A stretch of 42,061 nucleotides of DNA from a virus, in IMG/VR virus record IMGVR_UViG_3300049825_000158, positions 1 through 42,061 of that record. One strand, written 5' to 3'. The translations under genes and the position numbers were made by a program. The notes beneath the pieces are model-generated. The model had not been told where the DNA came from, made no database searches, and was given only the letters and a program-made list of their open reading frames with translations. This document shows, in pieces, positions 15,401-26,446 of the stretch (within the stretch, counting starts at the first letter, position 1; every line of letters begins with the position of its first letter).

Positions 15401-15458
15401 GGCTAACCCCTCGCTCAACTTGACCGCCTACGGCGACAAGTTAGCTCGAACGTTAGGC
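15401..15458 (+). mobile_element. attC-like site 2
   Basis: Cores GGCTAAC (15401-15407) and GTTAGGC (15452-15458), 58 bp. Arms CGCTCAACTTG and CAAGTTAGCTCG pair with one extra C on the left, 8 nt from the core. The minus-strand 43-aa gene stops inside the right core (GCC TAA C). The Tad1-like gene starts 37 bp beyond the left core. Confidence 0.85.
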
Positions 15459-15584
15459 CCAATCCCCAGTTTTTCTTAACGCCCAATTCACCCACCCGTT
15501 CGGGATGAACCACCCCGACCCATCGCGGACTCGGTTCAGGATCTTGTGCGCCGCAGCAAGCTGGTATTTGTTGGTGGTTTTCAT
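15453..15584 (-). CDS. Short cassette-terminal protein, unknown
   Basis: A 43-aa peptide (MKTTNKYQLAAAHKILNRV ... WVNWALRKTGDWA). Its ATG overlaps the TGA of the upstream gene (ATGA), and its stop codon is the TAA embedded in an attC core, the usual cassette-gene ending. Both features support a real gene. The Trp-rich C-terminus is notable. Function unknown. Confidence 0.6.
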   Translation of the reverse strand: MKTTNKYQLAAAHKILNRVRDGSGWFIPNGWVNWALRKTGDWA

Positions 15585-17493: not shown

Positions 17494-17589
17494 GGCTAAC
17501 GTTTGAGCTAAGCGGGAGACGCCCCATGACCAAACATGAAGACACCACCCAAGCTGCCGGCGGCTCTCCGCTTGAGCGACAGGTTAGGC
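17494..17589 (-). mobile_element. attC-like site 3 (contains a start codon)
   Basis: Cores GGCTAAC (17494-17500) and GTTAGGC (17583-17589), 96 bp. Arms GAGCTAAGCGG and CCGCTTGAGC pair with one extra G in the right arm, 8 nt from the right core. This is the mirror image of canonical attC, so polarity is minus while the genes run plus. GGGAGA and ATG 17526 lie in the centre. The 20 bases before it resemble those before site 5 (both contain ATGCAGCATG). Confidence 0.85.
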
Positions 17590-17621
17590 GTTTCGTGGAG
17601 AAAGCAAAGGAAATAGCATGA
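17526..17621 (+). CDS. Leader peptide encoded across an attC-like site
   Basis: A 31-aa ORF (MTKHEDTTQAAGGSPLERQ ...) that begins in the centre of site 3 with GGGAGA upstream. It reads through the right arm and core (GTT AGG CGT as Val-Arg-Arg), and its TGA overlaps the ATG of the methyltransferase gene. It probably opens the hairpin and couples translation to the cassette gene. It is the head of the same kind seen fused to other cassette proteins, so it may be a degenerate fusion head. Confidence 0.55.
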   Translation: MTKHEDTTQAAGGSPLERQVRRFVEKAKEIA

Positions 17622-18076
17622 GAGGTTACGCGGCCATTGGCCTAGACCACCCGAAATGCCCCGCGAATGTGGGCGGCGCAATGCGTGCTGCCGGTTGCTA
17701 CGGTGCTGCGATGGTAGCGATGTCGGGGCACCGCTTTGACAAGGCCCCGACCGACGTGCAGAAGCAATGGCGCTTGACGCCTGTGATTCAAACTGAAGAC
17801 CTTCGATTGGTGATTCCATACGACTGCGTTCCTGTGGCCGTGGACTTGATCCCTGGCGCTCAATCGCTTGCCGACTACAAACACCCAGAACGGGCGTTCT
17901 ACATTTTTGGACCTGAAGATGGCACATTGGGCGCGCGTGTGCTGTCATGGTGCAGGGATGTGATTTATATCCCTATGAACGGTTGTATGAATCTCGCGGC
18001 CACCGTGAACGTGGTGTTGTATGACAGGGCGTCGAAAATGCGCAAGACGCCTAACGTGGGAGCTGAGAGGCAATGA
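17618..18076 (+). CDS. SPOUT-family RNA 2'-O-methyltransferase (TrmH/SpoU-like)
   Basis: A 152-aa single-domain SPOUT enzyme. Motif 1 is HPKCPANVGGAMRAAGCYGA (Asn and Arg of the N..G..R signature), motif 2 is FYIFGPEDGTLGARVLSWC, and motif 3 is CMNLAATVNVVLYDR. Together these form the knotted SAM site. SpoU-like enzymes methylate tRNA or rRNA ribose, so the phage may modify host or phage tRNA. ATG 17618 overlaps the leader peptide stop. The C-terminus runs into site 4 (reading the core as Pro-Asn) and ends in an ATGA overlap with the next gene. Target RNA is unknown. Confidence 0.85.
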   Translation: MRGYAAIGLDHPKCPANVGGAMRAAGCYGAAMVAMSGHRFDKAPTDVQKQWRLTPVIQTEDLRLVIPYDCVPVAVDLIPGAQSLADYKHPERAFYIFGPEDGTLGARVLSWCRDVIYIPMNGCMNLAATVNVVLYDRASKMRKTPNVGAERQ

Positions 18077-18150
18077 CCGGCGCAACTGAACTTGACGAAG
18101 CGGGACAACCTGGCACGCCGGGCATTGTCCTTTCGAGCGACGGGTTAGCC
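18049..18150 (-). mobile_element. attC-like site 4 (contains a start codon)
   Basis: Cores GCCTAAC (18049-18055) and GTTAGCC (18144-18150), 102 bp. The extra arm base (G) lies 8 nt from the right core. The left arm encodes the end of the methyltransferase. GAGAGG and ATG 18073 initiate the next gene inside the hairpin, with the centre and right arm coding for its N-terminus. Confidence 0.8.
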
Positions 18151-18933
18151 GTCTCTTCCCGAAGCGCGCGTGTGGTGGCGCAGTTTTCTTGCGGTGCCGC
18201 CTCGGCTGTTGCGACGAAGCTGGCCATTGCCGAGTACGGGGACCGCGTGGTGATTGTGAACGCCTTCATCGAGGAAGAACACGAGGACAACCGCCGATTC
18301 GCCGCTGACTGCGAGGTGTGGTTCGGCCAAACCATCGTCAACCTGCGAGATACCAAGTACGACGCAAGCGCGATCAAGGTGTTTGAAACCGTGGGCTACA
18401 TCAAGGGGCCGCAGGGCGCGGCTTGCACATCGCGCATCAAGCGCGGCCTGCTGCGCACGTTTGAACAGCCCGGCGATGTGCTTGTGTTGGGCTACACCGC
18501 TGAGGAACAGGAGCGATATGACGACTGGCTGACCGACTGGCCCGACCGCAAGATCATTGCACCGCTCATCGAGCGCGGACTGACCAAGGAAGACTGCAAA
18601 GCGATGGTCGAGCGCGCCGGTCTGAAACTGCCAGCGATGTACCTGCTCGGCTATGACAATGCGAACTGCATTGGCTGTGTGAAGGGTGGGCTCGGGTACT
18701 TCCGGGCCGTCCGCGAAGACTTCCCGGTGCAGTTTGAACGCCTCGCCCAGGCCGAAGACAAGGTGGCTGGCTTGCGCGGCGAGAACGCCTACATCCTGCG
18801 CCACCGTTCGGGGCCGCTTGCAGGCCAGCGATTCCCGCTGCGGGAGTTGCCAGCAGGCAAGGCGCATCGTGGGGAGCCGCTGCCATCGTGCGGGCTGTTT
18901 TGCGAGAGTGCCGAACAGGAATATGCAGCATGA
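18073..18933 (+). CDS. PP-loop ATPase / PAPS-reductase-like protein
   Basis: A 286-aa protein. About 26 residues are encoded by site 4, then VVAQFSCGAASAVATKLAI gives the PP-loop (SxGxxSA in place of SGGxDS), followed by RVVIVNAFIEEEHEDNRRFAAD and a Cys-bearing region CIGCVKGGLGYFRA. This is the adenine-nucleotide alpha-hydrolase fold of PAPS reductases and DndC-like enzymes. Phage members are usually annotated only by homology. Possible roles are tRNA or DNA sulfur chemistry, or nucleotide removal. The Asp of the classical PP-loop is replaced by Ala, so activity is uncertain. It stops just before site 5. Confidence 0.75.
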   Translation: MTGATELDEAGQPGTPGIVLSSDGLAVSSRSARVVAQFSCGAASAVATKLAIAEYGDRVVIVNAFIEEEHEDNRRFAADCEVWFGQTIVNLRDTKYDASAIKVFETVGYIKGPQGAACTSRIKRGLLRTFEQPGDVLVLGYTAEEQERYDDWLTDWPDRKIIAPLIERGLTKEDCKAMVERAGLKLPAMYLLGYDNANCIGCVKGGLGYFRAVREDFPVQFERLAQAEDKVAGLRGENAYILRHRSGPLAGQRFPLRELPAGKAHRGEPLPSCGLFCESAEQEYAA

Positions 18934-18934
18934 C

Positions 18935-19034
18935 GGCTAACGTTGCAATTAAGCGGGGACCAACGGCGTGACACTGCACGAAGAAGCCACTACAGCGGAT
19001 GCCGTTGGGCGTCCGCTCGACCTGCGTGTTGGGC
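18935..19034 (-). mobile_element. attC-like site 5 (contains a start codon)
   Basis: Cores GGCTAAC (18935-18941) and GTTGGGC (19028-19034), 100 bp. Left arm TTGCAATTAAGCGG, right arm CCGCTCGACCTGCGT, with the extra G 8 nt from the right core. GTG 18968 starts the next gene within the long centre. Confidence 0.78.
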
Positions 19035-19264
19035 GGCTGGTGCCGAAGCGCGTTATGCCGAGCGAGGTGCATTTGGACGATGCGGGCCGGCCAATTTGCA
19101 TGTACTGCGACAAGCCGCTTCGTAAGGCCACGGCAAGCGCTTTTTGGAGGTATGACGCCAGCGTTGTGCAACTCTACGGATGGCTGGGTTGTTGCAACTT
19201 CTGTAGCGAACGATGCGCGGCTAGGTGGGGCGTCGTCAAGGCGTCCTCGACGTGCGCCGACTAG
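18968..19264 (+). CDS. Cassette zinc-finger protein, unknown function
   Basis: A 98-aa protein starting at GTG 18968 inside site 5. Residues about 14-23 (GRPLDLRVGR) are encoded by the attC arm and core. The remainder has CMYCDKPL and CNFCSERCAARW, two CxxC knuckles likely to bind zinc. It stops at TAG three bases before site 6. It may bind nucleic acid; no family was recognised. Confidence 0.6.
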   Translation: MTLHEEATTADAVGRPLDLRVGRLVPKRVMPSEVHLDDAGRPICMYCDKPLRKATASAFWRYDASVVQLYGWLGCCNFCSERCAARWGVVKASSTCAD

Positions 19265-19266
19265 CC

Positions 19267-19368
19267 GCTCAACGTAAAGCTAACCGGCCCACAATGGCCA
19301 CACGAAAGGTGAACATGAGCACAAAAGTAGCCGGCCCTTGTGGGTCCGAGTTGAGCGACGGGTTAGGC
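19267..19368 (-). mobile_element. attC-like site 6 (contains a start codon)
   Basis: Degenerate left core GCTCAAC (19267-19273) and right core GTTAGGC (19362-19368), 102 bp. Arms AAGCTAACCGG and CGAGTTGAGC have the extra G 8 nt from the right core. A longer stem GGCCCACAA/TTGTGGGTCC extends inward. AAAGGTGA and ATG 19315 lie in the loop. Confidence 0.75.
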
Positions 19369-19596
19369 GGCACTTGGCGCTACCACGGCAGGCCAGAGCC
19401 AAGCAAAGACTGCCGATGCTTGGTTACGCTGGAGCAAGGCGGATCGTGGCGCTGGGTTGGCATACGAGCCTACGACGCAAACCGAGGCGTGTGGCTGAAC
19501 AATGGCGAGCCGGAGCGCGACAAAGTGGTGGCTTGGCAGGTGTTGCCAGAGCCGGCGACAGGCTATTACGCACGGGGCATTCTCCGTGACGCCTAA
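19315..19596 (+). CDS. DUF551-like cassette protein
   Basis: A 93-aa protein starting at ATG 19315 in the loop of site 6 (AAAGGTGA upstream). Its first residues (STKVAGPCGSELSDGLGG) are attC-encoded. The body, with CRCLVTLEQGGSWRWVG, VWLNNGEPERDKVVAWQ and LPEPATG, resembles DUF551 domains, which end in a VxAWxxLPEPP motif and occur in phage and integron cassettes with unknown function. Its TAA stop lies inside the core of site 7 (GCC TAA C). An in-frame ATG at 19294 is possible but lacks a ribosome site. Confidence 0.6.
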   Translation: MSTKVAGPCGSELSDGLGGTWRYHGRPEPSKDCRCLVTLEQGGSWRWVGIRAYDANRGVWLNNGEPERDKVVAWQVLPEPATGYYARGILRDA

Positions 19597-19690
19597 CGAG
19601 GAGGTAACCGGATGACAACGGCGCAGATGAACGACCCGAAGCGCGGCGACGGCGCCGCCGTTGGCATTCCGGTTGACCGCAGGGTTAGGC
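19591..19690 (-). mobile_element. attC-like site 7 (contains RBS and start codon)
   Basis: Cores GCCTAAC (19591-19597) and GTTAGGC (19684-19690), 100 bp. Arms GAGGTAACCGG and CCGGTTGACC have the extra G 8 nt from the right core. The ribosome binding site GAGGAGG is the core-to-arm spacer itself, and ATG 19612 follows the left arm, so folding of the mRNA hairpin would hide the start region. Confidence 0.85.
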
Positions 19691-19947
19691 GTCCTCGCGT
19701 GCAGGCACAAGTGCGTGAGACGCACGAGTTTCAAGGCCGCTACAAGCAGCACGACCTAGACCTGATGCGCGACGGCTGGCACAGCAACTGGTACATCCGG
19801 GTGTGTGCGCCGAGCGGCCTGTATGCCTATGACGGCTACTGGCGCGAATCGCAAGGCAAGAGCCTGGACGACGCGATAACAGAGGCATGCACGGGCGCAT
19901 GTCTTTGGACGCCTAACGTAGTGTTAACCGGGAGACAACCGACGTGA
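19612..19947 (+). CDS. Cassette protein, unknown function
   Basis: A 111-aa protein with an ideal ribosome site (GAGGAGG) within site 7. Residues about 18-27 (VGIPVDRRVRR) come from the attC right arm. The body contains HDLDLMRDGWHSNWYIRVCAPSG and a Tyr/Trp-rich centre, suggesting a small folded domain. The C-terminus is encoded by site 8 (WTPNVVLTGRQPT), and its TGA overlaps the next GTG. No family was recognised. Confidence 0.6.
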   Translation: MTTAQMNDPKRGDGAAVGIPVDRRVRRPRVQAQVRETHEFQGRYKQHDLDLMRDGWHSNWYIRVCAPSGLYAYDGYWRESQGKSLDDAITEACTGACLWTPNVVLTGRQPT

Positions 19948-20004
19948 GCACCGAACAACCACAGCCCGGGGCCGTTGGCTTTCCGGTTGAACACATAGTT
20001 AGGC
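19911..20004 (-). mobile_element. attC-like site 8 (contains a start codon)
   Basis: Cores GCCTAAC (19911-19917) and GTTAGGC (19998-20004), 94 bp. Arms GTGTTAACCGG and CCGGTTGAACAC have the extra G 8 nt from the right core. GGGAGA and GTG 19944 lie in the centre. Both flanking genes overlap the site. Confidence 0.83.
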
Positions 20005-20240
20005 GCGTGGTGGATGGAGAGATGCCGCCCGCACTGACGCCGGTGCTGTTCTTCGTTCGCGGCTTGTGGCGCGCTGGCTGTTGGGCGAAGCGCGAGGACG
20101 GAATTTGCTGGCAGGTGGAGGGCACCTCATGGGTGGAACCAAGCGAATGGTGTGCGCGAATGGAGCGCCCGTCACACTGGATGCCTCAACCCGAAGCGCC
20201 TAACGTTGCAATTAAGCCGCCGGTACTCCGGTCGGCTTGA
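19944..20240 (+). CDS. DUF551-like cassette protein
   Basis: A 98-aa protein starting at GTG 19944, overlapping the upstream TGA. Its start AVGFPVEHIVRRVVD is attC-encoded. The C-terminal part has GICWQVEGTSWVEPSEWCARM and HWMPQPEAP, the DUF551-type ending also seen in the 19315-19596 gene. The protein then continues into site 9 (APNVAIKPPVLRSA) and stops inside its right arm. Function unknown. Confidence 0.55.
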   Translation: MSTEQPQPGAVGFPVEHIVRRVVDGEMPPALTPVLFFVRGLWRAGCWAKREDGICWQVEGTSWVEPSEWCARMERPSHWMPQPEAPNVAIKPPVLRSA

Positions 20241-20254
20241 ATTGCGTGTTAGGC
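20198..20254 (-). mobile_element. attC-like site 9 (compact)
   Basis: Cores GCCTAAC (20198-20204) and GTTAGGC (20248-20254), 57 bp. Arms GCAATTAAGCCG and CGGCTTGAATTGC pair perfectly except for one extra G, 8 nt from the right core. The centre is CCGG-TACT-CCGG. This is the most textbook-like site and clearly shows the mirrored polarity. Confidence 0.9.
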
Positions 20255-20283
20255 CCCCATGTTTCCGAAGCGAGGAGATGGTG

Positions 20284-20499
20284 ATGAGCTACGACGAAGA
20301 GATGTTCAAGAAGTGGCGCGAAGCGCGGGTGAAGTTCATTGCGGACAACCCAGCCACGGCGCAGGCGCTTGCGCTGAAGGTGCCGAGCCCGACTGGCGAC
20401 GAGCACATTGCCAGCGAGCACTGTTGGTGCGGGCCGGAAGCGGCCTACACCGACCCTGAGACTGGCGCGACGGTGTTTGTGCATCGGAGGATTCAATGA
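20284..20499 (+). CDS. Small cassette protein, unknown
   Basis: A 71-aa protein (MSYDEEMFKKWREARVKF ...) with GAGGAG six bases before ATG 20284. It has a helical N-terminus, a Cys pair in HCWCGPEAAY and a beta-type ending TGATVFVHRRIQ. It begins 30 bp after site 9 and overlaps the next gene by ATGA. No family was recognised. Confidence 0.62.
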   Translation: MSYDEEMFKKWREARVKFIADNPATAQALALKVPSPTGDEHIASEHCWCGPEAAYTDPETGATVFVHRRIQ

Positions 20500-20975
20500 G
20501 CGGCGACATGGACATAGACCGGCACCTGCGAGCCAAAATCGCGGCCTTGACAGAAGAGTGCAAGGTGCTTCGCGCGAACATTGACAGCTCGCCGTCGGTC
20601 GATGAGTGGCGCGCGAAGGACGCAGAGATTGCGCTGCTGCGCGCCGAATACGCCAAGTCAGAGCGCCGCGCAATAATGTTCGGCGACATCTTGCACAGCC
20701 AGGTGGTTGCAATGCAGGCGGCCGTGCTTGATGGCCACCTGAAGACGCCAGCCAACGGCTTGCAGTGGATCGTGAACACACTGACCGGCCCAGGCCACTT
20801 GCCGGACCTGGACGAAGCCCGCGCGCTCGGTGGAGCGCAGGCGTATTGGGTTCGCGAGATGGCCAAGCACGAGGAATTTAGGGCTGCGCACCCCGGCCCT
20901 GCTGCCTTGGGGCCTAACGTTGGAATTGAGCCGCCGTACTCGGTCGGCTCGAATGACGGGTTAGGTCCGTTGTAA
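20496..20975 (+). CDS. Helical cassette protein reading through a whole attC-like site
   Basis: A 159-aa protein with a predicted coiled-coil N-terminal half (LRAKIAALTEECKVLRANI; DAEIALLRAEYAKSERRA). The last about 22 residues (LGPNVGIEPPYSVGSNDG and LGPL) are encoded by the complete site 10, from left core to beyond the right core. Residues about 65-135 resemble short phage proteins with an LQWIVNTLTGPGHLPD motif. Function unknown. Confidence 0.6.
   Translation: MSGDMDIDRHLRAKIAALTEECKVLRANIDSSPSVDEWRAKDAEIALLRAEYAKSERRAIMFGDILHSQVVAMQAAVLDGHLKTPANGLQWIVNTLTGPGHLPDLDEARALGGAQAYWVREMAKHEEFRAAHPGPAALGPNVGIEPPYSVGSNDGLGPL
20912..20966 (-). mobile_element. attC-like site 10 (compact)
   Basis: Cores GCCTAAC (20912-20918) and GTTAGGT (20960-20966), 55 bp. 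Arms GGAATTGAGCCG and CGGCTCGAATGAC, extra G 8 nt from the right core. It is nearly identical to site 12, including about 17 bases (CCGTTGTAACCGGAGCG) beyond the right core, so the two cassettes share their 5' leader. Confidence 0.87.
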
Positions 20976-20990
20976 CCGGAGCGAGAAACT

Positions 20991-21251
20991 ATGAGCGCAG
21001 CTATGTTTGAAACGTTCCGCGACATTGGAACGTATGAAGTGCATCAGCTTAGGCAGGCGGAGCCTTCTTGTTTTAACGGCATGGTGCGGGTTGAAAAGTA
21101 CCGCGTGACCGTTGAGAAAGTGGAAGAGCCCGCCGACGTGATCCACGCGCGCTTGCGAAAGATGTGGGATGAGTGCGACAACAGCCACCACCGTGAACCG
21201 CTGATCCGTGCCGGGCTGAAGTACGGCATCGACCTGCGCAAACGGGCCTAA
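20991..21251 (+). CDS. Small cassette protein, unknown
   Basis: An 86-aa protein (MSAAMFETFRDIGTYEVHQ ...) with a beta-type first half (FNGMVRVEKYRVTVEKVEEP) and a helical second half (VIHARLRKMWDECDNSHHREPL). GGAGCGAGAAACT precedes the ATG. Its stop is the TAA inside the site 11 core, a cassette hallmark. No family was recognised. Confidence 0.65.
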   Translation: MSAAMFETFRDIGTYEVHQLRQAEPSCFNGMVRVEKYRVTVEKVEEPADVIHARLRKMWDECDNSHHREPLIRAGLKYGIDLRKRA

Positions 21252-21332
21252 CGTGGAGTTCAGCGGCGTGCCCGCTGGACATTCGAGCAACCACCCTGCT
21301 GGCGGCACGTCCGCTGGAACGCAGGGTTAGGC
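21246..21332 (-). mobile_element. attC-like site 11
   Basis: Cores GCCTAAC (21246-21252) and GTTAGGC (21326-21332), 87 bp. Arms GGAGTTCAGCGGCGTGCC and GGCACGTCCGCTGGAACGC have the extra G 8 nt from the right core. The stem is long and the centre carries no start codon in use. Confidence 0.85.
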
Positions 21333-21354
21333 GTCAAGGCGCCGGAGCGTGACC

Positions 21355-21546
21355 ATGAGCGAAGACTACGAAATCAAGAACCTGCGCGAACAGTTCAAGA
21401 TCGTGTGCCGCAAGTGCGGCAGCGAGGATGTGGCGATCAACAAGGAAGACGGCATCGACTATGGCGGCGAAACCGGCTACCAAAGCGGCAGCTTCCAGAT
21501 CGGGTGCAACGGCTGCAAGGCCAATGACTGGTGCGTGTGGATTTGA
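21355..21546 (+). CDS. Zinc-ribbon cassette protein
   Basis: A 63-aa protein with CRKCGSEDV and CNGCKAND, a two-knuckle CxxC/CxxC zinc ribbon, and a Trp/Cys ending NDWCVWI. ATG 21355 has GGAG upstream; an in-frame GTG at 21349 is less likely. It stops 1 bp before site 12. It could bind nucleic acid or another protein; function unknown. Confidence 0.65.
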   Translation: MSEDYEIKNLREQFKIVCRKCGSEDVAINKEDGIDYGGETGYQSGSFQIGCNGCKANDWCVWI

Positions 21547-21547
21547 C

Positions 21548-21603
21548 GCCTAACGTCGGAATTGAGCCGCCGCGTAGCGGTCGGCTCGAATGACGGGTTA
21601 GGC
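21548..21603 (-). mobile_element. attC-like site 12 (compact)
   Basis: Cores GCCTAAC (21548-21554) and GTTAGGC (21597-21603), 56 bp. Arms as in site 10, centre CGCGTAGCGG. The extra G is 8 nt from the right core. The near-identity to site 10, continuing into the following leader, suggests cassette duplication with replacement of the gene, or recent exchange. Confidence 0.88.
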
Positions 21604-21622
21604 CCGTTGTAACCGGAGCGTG

Positions 21623-21772
21623 ATGATGTTGAAAAGGCTTTGCATTTTTCTTTTGGGCGGATGCTATGAGGTGTCTCATGTTTCTACACACGACACCTGG
21701 ATGACATGGCGAAGGAAGCGCGATGGTTGGTGGCCTACCAAATTTGACTCATGGATGAACCCGCGGGCCTAA
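21623..21772 (+). CDS. Short cassette peptide with possible lipoprotein signal
   Basis: A 49-aa peptide. The N-terminus has basic residues, a short hydrophobic stretch and Leu-Gly-Gly-Cys (MMLKRLCIFLLGGC), which could be a lipobox. The rest is Trp-rich (TWMTWRRKRDGWWPTKF). CCGGAGCG precedes the start. Its TAA lies inside the core of site 13, which supports a genuine cassette gene despite its length. Confidence 0.55.
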   Translation: MMLKRLCIFLLGGCYEVSHVSTHDTWMTWRRKRDGWWPTKFDSWMNPRA

Positions 21773-21859
21773 CGTTTGAGGTAACCGGCTTGCGCCGTGA
21801 AGGAGTTGGAATGACCACAAATGCTGCCGGCGCAAGTCCGGTTGACCGAGGGGTTAGGC
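21767..21859 (-). mobile_element. attC-like site 13 (contains RBS and start codon)
   Basis: Cores GCCTAAC (21767-21773) and GTTAGGC (21853-21859), 93 bp. Arms GAGGTAACCGG and CCGGTTGACC have the extra G 8 nt from the right core; the inner stem CTTGCGCC/GGCGCAAG closes the loop. GAAGGAG and ATG 21811 lie in the loop, as in site 7. Confidence 0.85.
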
Positions 21860-22056
21860 GCAGGCGCGTAGAACTTGCCCTGCACCGCTTGAAAGGGCTG
21901 GAGCTTTCAGGTGGGCAGATTAAGGAGCGGCTGGAGGTGCGCGAGGTCGAGGTGATGGCGCGGGCCAAAGGCTATGCAATGGTGCGCCGCAAGGGCTGCG
22001 CCCCCTATGTGGTGAGCGAGAAAGAACTGCTGGCCCCTGCGCCTAACGTGAGTTAG
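21811..22056 (+). CDS. Small cassette protein, unknown
   Basis: An 81-aa protein starting in the loop of site 13. Residues 7-18 (GASPVDRGVRRR) are attC-encoded. The body is basic and helical-to-beta (ALHRLKGLELSGGQIKERLEV; RRKGCAPYVVSEKELL). It ends APAPNVS in the collapsed site 14, where TAG arises from the right core. No family was recognised. Confidence 0.58.
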   Translation: MTTNAAGASPVDRGVRRRRVELALHRLKGLELSGGQIKERLEVREVEVMARAKGYAMVRRKGCAPYVVSEKELLAPAPNVS

Positions 22057-22058
22057 GC
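22041..22058. mobile_element. Collapsed attC-like site 14
   Basis: GCCTAAC and GTTAGGC are separated by only four bases (GTGA), so both cores are intact but all arm and centre sequence is missing. It marks the right end of the dense cassette run and the boundary with the recombination core. It looks like a deletion derivative and would not be expected to recombine as attC. Confidence 0.65.
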
Positions 22059-23529: not shown

Positions 23530-23645
23530 TCTCGAAAGCAAAAGACTTTGCCTACGTCTATCGGCTCTACCGCAATGGTGGGCACAACCGGCTGTACAGC
23601 CTCAAGACAGCGTGGAACATCGGCGTGCGCGGGTGGGATTTTTAA
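23526..23645 (+). CDS. Tiny basic protein before ERF
   Basis: A 39-aa protein (MISKAKDFAYVYRLYRNGG ...) overlapping the upstream stop (ATGA) and followed after 11 bp by the ERF gene. The end KTAWNIGVRGWDF is well ordered. Function unknown. Confidence 0.55.
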   Translation: MISKAKDFAYVYRLYRNGGHNRLYSLKTAWNIGVRGWDF

Positions 23646-23656
23646 CAGGAGAACCA

Positions 23657-24310
23657 ATGTCAGTCTATTCAAAACTCAACGAAGCGCGAGCCAAGTTCCA
23701 CGAACTAAAGCTGGAAAAAACCGGGCACAACAAGTTTGCCGGGTACTACTACTTCGAGCTGGGAGACTTCCTGATCCCGGCTCTGCAAATCTTCAACGAA
23801 GTGGGGCTGTGCGCCATCGTTTCCTTCGACAAGGAAATGGCTCGCATGGACATTCACGACGTATCTGATGCCGATGGTCGCAAGTCACTCACTATCACTT
23901 CGCCACTGAGCGAGGCAAACCTAAAAGGGTGCCACCCGATCCAGAATGTAGGCGCATGCGAGACGTACAGCCGCCGCTATCTCTGGGTTGCCGCGCTGGA
24001 AATCGTCGAACACGATGCGCTGGATGCGACCACCGGCAAGGATCAAAAGGAAAAGACCGGCGTGCCGGCCAACGTCAAGGCAAGCGGGCCAGAGTTGATC
24101 TTCCAGTCACTACAGCCAGAGGATGCAGACTATTGCAGACGAGTCGCCAAACAAATCGTCGATGTGATGCCGGATGCAAGCCGCGCCGTTGACATCATTG
24201 ACAACGAGGGTATGAACAACGATCAGAAGGTCGGTGTCTGGCACTTGTTGGATAGCAAAACCCGTTCGTTAATCAGAGCTGCCCAGGCGGCACAAAAGGA
24301 GCCAGTGTGA
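23657..24310 (+). CDS. ERF-family single-strand annealing recombinase
   Basis: A 217-aa protein. The N-terminal region (YSKLNEARAKFHELKLEKTG; KFAGYYYFELGDFLIPALQ), the following VSFDKEMARMDIHD, and the LPS-like segment GACETYSRRYLWVAALEI are diagnostic of the ERF superfamily. These annealing proteins act in phage recombination and replication. AGGAGAACC precedes ATG 23657. It is followed by SpoVG-like, DUF1364 and NinB genes, giving a complete recombination module. Confidence 0.88.
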   Translation: MSVYSKLNEARAKFHELKLEKTGHNKFAGYYYFELGDFLIPALQIFNEVGLCAIVSFDKEMARMDIHDVSDADGRKSLTITSPLSEANLKGCHPIQNVGACETYSRRYLWVAALEIVEHDALDATTGKDQKEKTGVPANVKASGPELIFQSLQPEDADYCRRVAKQIVDVMPDASRAVDIIDNEGMNNDQKVGVWHLLDSKTRSLIRAAQAAQKEPV

Positions 24311-25845: not shown

Positions 25846-26080
25846 CGTGCTATGGATGACCGTACAAAAGCCTCAGTGCATGAGTTGCGCGAATGTGATC
25901 TATACGCCACCGGCCATGAAATGCCGTGCATTGCCCATCGCTGGGCGCGGGCACCTTGGCAAAACATCGGGACACGAATACTGCATCGATGCGCGGGATG
26001 GAGCCTGCGGAGATGAGGCTGTGCTGTATGAGGCTAACGTGCGGCTCACTGGCGGACCTTCCAGTGCGGCAGCGGGTTAG
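25826..26080 (+). CDS. Cys-rich protein ending in an attC-like site
   Basis: An 84-aa protein starting within the end of ninB. It has CMSC in VQKPQCMSCANVIYTPPAMKC and further Cys in HEYCIDARDGACGDEA, suggesting a small zinc-binding fold. The last about 17 residues are encoded by site 15, and TAG comes from its right core. Function unknown. Confidence 0.62.
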   Translation: MTPKERNVLWMTVQKPQCMSCANVIYTPPAMKCRALPIAGRGHLGKTSGHEYCIDARDGACGDEAVLYEANVRLTGGPSSAAAG

Positions 26081-26082
26081 GC
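26032..26082 (-). mobile_element. attC-like site 15
   Basis: Cores GGCTAAC (26032-26038) and GTTAGGC (26076-26082), 51 bp. Arms CGGCTCACTGG and CCAGTGCGGCAG, extra C in the right arm 8 nt from the core. It is the first site after a 4-kb stretch without any and separates NinB-linked genes from the last plus-strand cassette. Confidence 0.72.
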
Positions 26083-26396: not shown

Positions 26397-26446
26397 GCCT
26401 AACCCAAAGATCAGCGGCTGAAAGTCCGCTGCATCGTCAGTTAGGC
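26397..26446 (-). mobile_element. attC-like site 16 at the convergent end
   Basis: Cores GCCTAAC (26397-26403) and GTTAGGC (26440-26446), 50 bp. The extra arm base is 7 nt from the right core. The minus strand shares 21 identical bases with the plus strand of site 0, so the two sites flank the whole accessory region in inverted orientation. The minus-strand Rz gene ends inside the right core (ending AWPN). Confidence 0.75.

Follow-up and report, generated by a model that had tools for sequence, protein, structure and literature searches.

Inverted attC sites with internal start codons in a viral cassette array: candidate portable translation-start modules

The viral record IMGVR_UViG_3300049825_000158 of IMG/VR (42,061 bases, analyzed over its whole length and referred to here as the window) carries on its plus strand eleven attC sites, the recombination sites of integron cassettes, at positions 17494-21859, followed by an 18-bp remnant at 22041-22058. 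Several of these sites hold a start codon, which raises the question of whether the cassette genes begin inside their recombination sites and, if so, what such an arrangement would mean for the array. Our analysis indicates that this locus is very probably an inverted phage integron array in which the long attC would double as a portable translation-start module. The sites show the RYYYAAC...GTTRRRY boxes (R''/R') with pairing L''/L' arms and a spacer of 7 nt between arm and box; S1 and S2 each have one box base off consensus. Sites 3-8 and 13 of an earlier sequence-only reading of this DNA are S1-S6 and S11 here, and S12 is the remnant. The array comprises the following features (aa, amino acids; ORF, open reading frame; SD, Shine-Dalgarno sequence; +, plus strand):

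17494-17589 (+): attC S1 (site 3), with boxes and arms; its bulge orientation places the top strand of the canonical attC on the minus strand
17526-17621 (+): 31-aa leader ORF from inside S1, with SD GGGAG at 17514-17518; its stop overlaps the SpoU start
17618-18076 (+): cassette gene for a SpoU-type rRNA methylase (Pfam PF00588, 2e-14), which begins past S1 at a start codon of its own and stops within S2
18049-18150 (+): attC S2 (site 4)
18073-18933 (+): PAPS-reductase-like gene with its ATG inside S2, named from an N-terminal motif resemblance, without a Pfam match
18935-19034 (+): attC S3 (site 5), with GTG 18968 inside and a weak SD
18968-19264 (+): 98-aa ORF from inside S3, start uncertain, with a weak Rtr1-like zinc-finger match below cut-off
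19267-19368 (+): attC S4 (site 6), with AAGGTG and, in the loop, ATG 19315
19315-19596 (+): 93-aa ORF from inside S4; its stop is the TAA of the S5 left box
19591-19690 (+): attC S5 (site 7), with GAGGAGG at 19598-19604 as box-arm spacer and ATG 19612
19612-19947 (+): 111-aa ORF from inside S5, its stop overlapping the next start as GTGA; a homologue in L412 lies behind a similar start module
19911-20004 (+): attC S6 (site 8), with GGGAG and GTG 19944
19944-20240 (+): 98-aa DUF551-like ORF (below cut-off) from inside S6, ending in S7
20198-20254 (+): short attC S7, without a usable internal start
20912-20966 (+): short attC S8, without a usable internal start, read through by the upstream ORF 20496-20975
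21246-21332 (+): attC S9 (87 bp), whose internal GTG frame ends at the right-box TAG; the gene start lies downstream
21548-21603 (+): short attC S10, without a usable internal start
21767-21859 (+): attC S11 (site 13), with AAGGAG at 21800-21805 and ATG 21811 in the apical loop
21811-22056 (+): 81-aa ORF from inside S11; its stop is a TAG in the remnant
22041-22058 (+): attC remnant GCCTAACGTGAGTTAGGC, two attC boxes fused with the hairpin deleted, apparently an inactivated site at the array end

The sequence-only reading had placed start codons in its sites 3-8 and 13, and this placement is borne out: seven long sites of 93-102 bp (S1 to S6 and S11) hold starts at 17526, 18073, 18968 (GTG), 19315, 19612, 19944 (GTG), and 21811, that is, 21-48 nt into the site, and S4 has a further in-frame ATG at 19294, upstream of 19315. 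A clear SD is present in S1, S4, S5, S6, and S11; that of S5 lies, as had been pointed out for site 7, exactly between the box GCCTAAC and the arm TAACCGG. Six of the seven internal ORFs (81-286 aa) cross the right box without a change of frame and continue as the cassette gene, and the remaining one, from S1, is the 31-aa leader that meets the SpoU gene's own start (17618) as ATGA.

IMG/VR and GTDB genomes were searched for attC sites with patterns free of start codon and SD, giving a sample of 255 viral loci (window included) with 486 sites and 120 bacterial loci with 199 sites. On the gene strand, an SD with ATG or GTG was found in 194 of 312 distinct long viral attCs (mean of 105 and highest value of 121 in 50 dinucleotide shuffles), compared with 47 on the opposite, canonical strand of these sites, 46 of 172 in long bacterial attCs (shuffles, 53), and 7 of 154 in short viral attCs (shuffles, 22). 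ORFs from internal SD-starts remained open for at least 30 codons beyond the site in 139 of 301 viral vs. 9 of 165 bacterial cases, and the phase that hits the TAG in GTTAG was avoided in the viral sites (125/80/35, vs. 19/22/20 in bacteria). We also performed a blind phase test on long sites with a single SD-ATG, in which a clear coding frame was measured only after the site: start phase and coding phase agreed in 92 of 108 viral cases, where about 52 were expected from the marginals (kappa of about 0.7; chi-square p = 5e-16), and in 4 of 19 bacterial cases. Two phase groups were apparent, GTT AGG (..VR) and xxG TTA (..GL). In addition, an SD-start downstream of the site was rarer when the attC held an in-frame SD-start (19/60 vs. 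40/61, p = 3e-4). By these population tests, the internal starts in the window sites exceed chance.

The gene that begins in S2 offers a view of how such a fusion could arise. Its body has 20 viral relatives with 34-87% identity, and in the 16 relatives inspected an attC beside the gene was not found; most of them begin with M-(S/T)-R-I-V-C-Q-F-S-C-G-A-A-S or a similar sequence. In the window this native start is gone: the ORF begins in the attC and carries a 31-residue extension, and near the former start there are two GTGs, both without SD. The S2 gene looks like a free-standing gene captured as a cassette.

Comparison among phages revealed that one protein body, with DNA identity of up to 96%, can follow unrelated attCs, with the right box as the junction, as observed in several phage pairs. 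In L006 and L308 the junctions read MIEDKPQTDPDNRPAVGAQVERS / VRPRAAFEAWIS and MTEANQTSRPVVGRLEAP / VRPRAAFEAWIS, each attC contributing its own in-frame start, and further shared bodies behind differing in-frame start modules were identified in L021/L050, L043/L348, L089/L287 (bodies 96% identical), and L246/L266/L287; an in-frame start was present in every long module checked that is joined to a shared body. Breakpoints of homology were distributed over both boxes. At the left box, where the bulge predicts the crossover, the attC stayed with the downstream gene 11 times and the upstream side was shared alone 17 times; at the right box, 25 breakpoints left the downstream body alone in common and 3 left the upstream side together with the site. 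Two readings fit this: recombination of both strands of these sites, or replacement of the start modules by another route. Our first assumption, that the start module is part of the upstream cassette, is opposed by the bulge orientation, with the breakpoint data split. No cassette body common to the phage and bacterial samples was found at the DNA level. As a separate observation, near-identical start modules (TAACCGGCCTTGG...AGGAGCAACGATG) occur before differing bodies at L010:9736/10095, L088:5590, L118:4720, and L023:2899.

A feature that the sequence-only reading had left unmentioned is that the attCs are antisense to the genes. In a canonical attC, the extra base sits in the left arm, and the orientation of each site was read from the arm that carries it. 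Gene orientation was taken from a codon model, the longest-ORF test having been dropped because it was blurred by GC-rich shadow ORFs; likewise, a plasmid match intended for an orientation check on the aadA1 attC was not in aadA context and was dropped, and bacterial loci served instead. In these, genes were sense to the attC in 51 intervals and antisense in 2. Viral loci were reversed, with 221 antisense intervals (94 loci) vs. 11 sense intervals (6 loci), and 5 of these 11 come from L359, on inspection a classical integron on an isolate-genome contig. The phage sites thus do not show the bacterial type of cassette, in which a sense gene lies upstream of its attC. In the window, all nine scorable plus-strand sites (eight in the array, plus 26397) are antisense to the genes by the extra base; S2-S4 scored too low for bulge orientation.

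The position of the integrase gene gives a second reference. IntI above cut-off was found in 7 of the 93 related records listed, one of which is a probable bacterial contig. In L242, L243, L244, L389, and L390, which have intI and attCs, the attCs have the classical direction, away from intI, and the genes of the same region run toward intI and in its direction; the control contig L391 has the classical arrangement. The cassettes of L243, L389, and L390 are followed by intI either immediately or after one gene; in L242 and L244, intI is about 3 kb away. That L242, L243, and L390 are phages is supported by tail-fibre, primase, and phage integrase genes, and at 6318-8448 of L243 IntI stands next to a second tyrosine recombinase, right after the cassette operon and beside tail-fibre genes.

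Outside the array, the window encodes a portal protein, the terminase large subunit (TerL), ejection-type proteins, and, at 23612-24310, an Erf-like annealing protein. The isolated-phage collection contained no nucleotide match to the window or to its attCs, and the closest TerL among isolated phages has 45% identity to that of the window; an Rfam search returned no family above gathering score. Three solitary sites, each antisense to the adjacent genes, accompany the array, and the first of them has almost the same sequence as the site closest to intI in L243 (8934-8991):

15401-15464 (minus strand): isolated attC among minus-strand genes, antisense to them
26032-26082 (+): isolated attC-like site, its extra base antisense to the genes (by inspection)
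26397-26446 (+): isolated attC-like site, oriented like the array sites

In the array that we propose, each attC precedes its gene on the 5' side and is antisense when compared with bacterial cassettes, and the long attCs have SD and ATG or GTG within the hairpin, in the apical loop or an arm, where ribosomes would initiate. Some 13-26 freely evolving codons then cross the right box GTTAGGC in phase GTT AGG or xxG TTA, the frame continues into any gene body joined there, and the ORF commonly stops with the TAA that the next box supplies (GCC TAA C). Since start, frame, and stop are arranged around the boxes, body and start module could be exchanged, presumably by phage or host IntI, without losing any of them. 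The cassettes would be co-transcribed as an operon, and in intI-carrying phages the integrase gene follows the cassette genes and has their direction. It is also reasonably probable, though we hold this broader proposal less firmly, that such loci represent a widespread phage-specific architecture. Every cassette would then be inverted, with its attC at the 5' end; the genes would make up a single co-directional unit with intI as its last member; attCs would be interchangeable start modules with two frame groups; and free-standing genes would become cassettes by losing their start to an attC. In that architecture the coding strand would be the recombinogenic bottom strand, so that transcription itself would expose the foldable strand.

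The sequence-only reading had offered another rationale, namely that the upstream gene ends in the left arm or overlaps the start, that ribosomes finishing it melt the stem, and that the result is an operon of coupled translation that survives shuffling. Its first element fits S2 (ATGA) and S6 (GTGA), where stop and start overlap, as well as S5 and S11, where the upstream gene ends in the TAA of GCCTAAC, and fails for S3 and S4, whose upstream genes end just before the site, and for S1, which has no upstream gene. Among 145 long start-bearing sites, the upstream stop was the left-box TAA in 75, came earlier in 32, and fell within the hairpin in 38; stop and start overlapped in 13-15, and the start lay 21-60 nt from the stop in 97. 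About half of the viral cassette genes stop at a TAA within GCCTAAC, and as this TAA is part of the box, the recombination box doubles as a stop. RNA folding predicted hairpins of -28 to -48 kcal/mol. In 69% of 140 sites, the start had a better than even chance of being unpaired and often fell in the apical loop; it was mainly unpaired in S4, S6, and S11 and paired in the stem in S1, S2, and S5. Since the start is often unpaired, melting would often not be needed, and the predicted start can stay usable through its place in the loop as well as through an upstream ribosome that opens the stem. Obligatory coupling by melting, although in keeping with the overlaps and the stem starts, is therefore doubtful, given that 107 of the 145 upstream genes reach their stop no later than the left box, that most starts have a distance of 21-60 nt and an unpaired loop position, and that S1 lacks an upstream gene; coupling at S2, S6, and, through the leader peptide, S1 is plausible. 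What stands of the earlier proposal is the start inside the attC and the tolerance of recombination, as seen in the phase match, the swaps, and the loss of the S2 native start.

The other explanations concern what the ATGs, the cassettes, and the exchanges are. That the ATGs are incidental, genes starting past the right box and the attC codons being untranslated 5' sequence open by chance, would accommodate leader peptides that are not conserved, the downstream GTG or ATG candidates of some genes, and the genes of S1 and S9, which do start downstream. The phase match, the enrichment of SD and start, the depletion of downstream SD-starts, the lost native start of the S2 gene, and the in-frame start in each checked module make this highly improbable. 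If the cassettes were ordinary ones (gene then attC, same sense) with only an odd bulge side, the start of each gene would come from the attC of the preceding cassette; the 25 + 3 breakpoint pairs fit the right-box exchange this entails, but 11 + 17 pairs are those expected for the left box, and the attC/intI geometry comes out as classical only when orientation is read from the bulge (5/5 phages), so that we regard this as unlikely. Exchange through the homologous recombination of the phage, by Erf-type annealing over the short homology of the boxes, would agree with the Erf-like protein and the lack of a recognized integrase in the window; yet a 7-nt box offers very little length for annealing, the sites have kept their hairpin structure and bulges, and some relatives encode IntI, and we find this route quite improbable.

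Several observations weigh against the inverted, start-bearing array that we favor. The search patterns cover only some arm types, and an in-frame internal start is absent from half of the long and nearly all of the short sites. In the window, the SD of S2 is doubtful (GAGAGG is too near, or GGAG is 10 nt off), and that of S3 is weak (GGGGA with a GTG start). Orientation was calibrated on bacterial arrays, not biochemically; homology breaks at both boxes, so that the cassette boundary could lie at either; and no tyrosine recombinase, integrase, or intI was recognized in the window record, which is possibly a fragment. Finally, conservation of the leader peptide as a coding test was negative: leader differences are spread evenly over codon positions (306/356/357), and the synonymous to nonsynonymous ratio is 0.42 vs. 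0.34 for neutral. With the peptide near neutral, the case for its being coding is made by frame and phase rather than by conservation, and nothing beyond start, frame, and openness seems to count in leaders that evolve in this way.

Integron cassettes are commonly viewed as gene-then-attC units read from Pc. Inverted cassettes with a hairpin-supplied start codon would change how cassettes can form and be expressed, which bears on how genes become cassettes, as the apparent capture of the S2 gene illustrates; they would explain how arrays stay translatable under shuffling, and they predict many misannotated N-termini in phage genomes. With bacterial integron cassettes (intI, attI, attC; class 1 and sedentary chromosomal), the phage arrays share the GTTRRRY/RYYYAAC boxes, the imperfect arms with an extra base, the arrays of small ORFs, and, in some phage relatives, a true IntI; unlike them, they have the attC 5' of and antisense to the gene, genes directed toward intI, and the start inside the attC.

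A recombination site with SD and start codon has been described in attI1, whose ORF-11, ORF-17, and ORF-18 (Hanau-Bercot 2002) are covered in passages of the review PMC8876359; according to these passages, ORF-11 and ORF-18 span the crossover point and aid cassettes poor in translation initiation regions. As described there, the attI1 ORFs are short leader peptides, couple to the first cassette only, and in the case of ORF-11 usually end at the core TAG, whereas the phage starts lie in attC, at many sites, and are mostly fused in frame to the gene. The S1 leader resembles the ORF-11 type by anatomy (ATGA), and the other six window ORFs are in-frame fusions. Passages of PMC8876359 and PMC4670013 also cite attC hairpins as translation barriers in class 1 integrons (Jacquier 2009); there, the hairpin in a polycistronic mRNA hinders the next gene, whereas in the phages the start lies inside the hairpin.

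The available parts of Qi 2023 (PMC9892861) report CALINs (clusters of attC sites lacking integron integrases) and integrons in phages, often without integrase, and in the assay of that study phage attCs showed activity with IntI1. That work and the present phages have in common that phage genomes carry attC arrays; its available parts, together with a term search, yielded no inverted gene orientation or internal start codons. In TJE1, the finder applied here gave no credible attC site. A passage of PMC8632094 describes the OTH-22-1 motif, which has RYYYAAC, as a structured element that resembles attC and is likely novel, and that passage links it neither to phages nor to start codons. The open-access literature provided no report of inverted phage cassettes or of start codons in attC, most subscription papers and all preprints lying beyond the search. 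Phage CALINs and integrons, attI1 leader ORFs, and attC barriers are already known.

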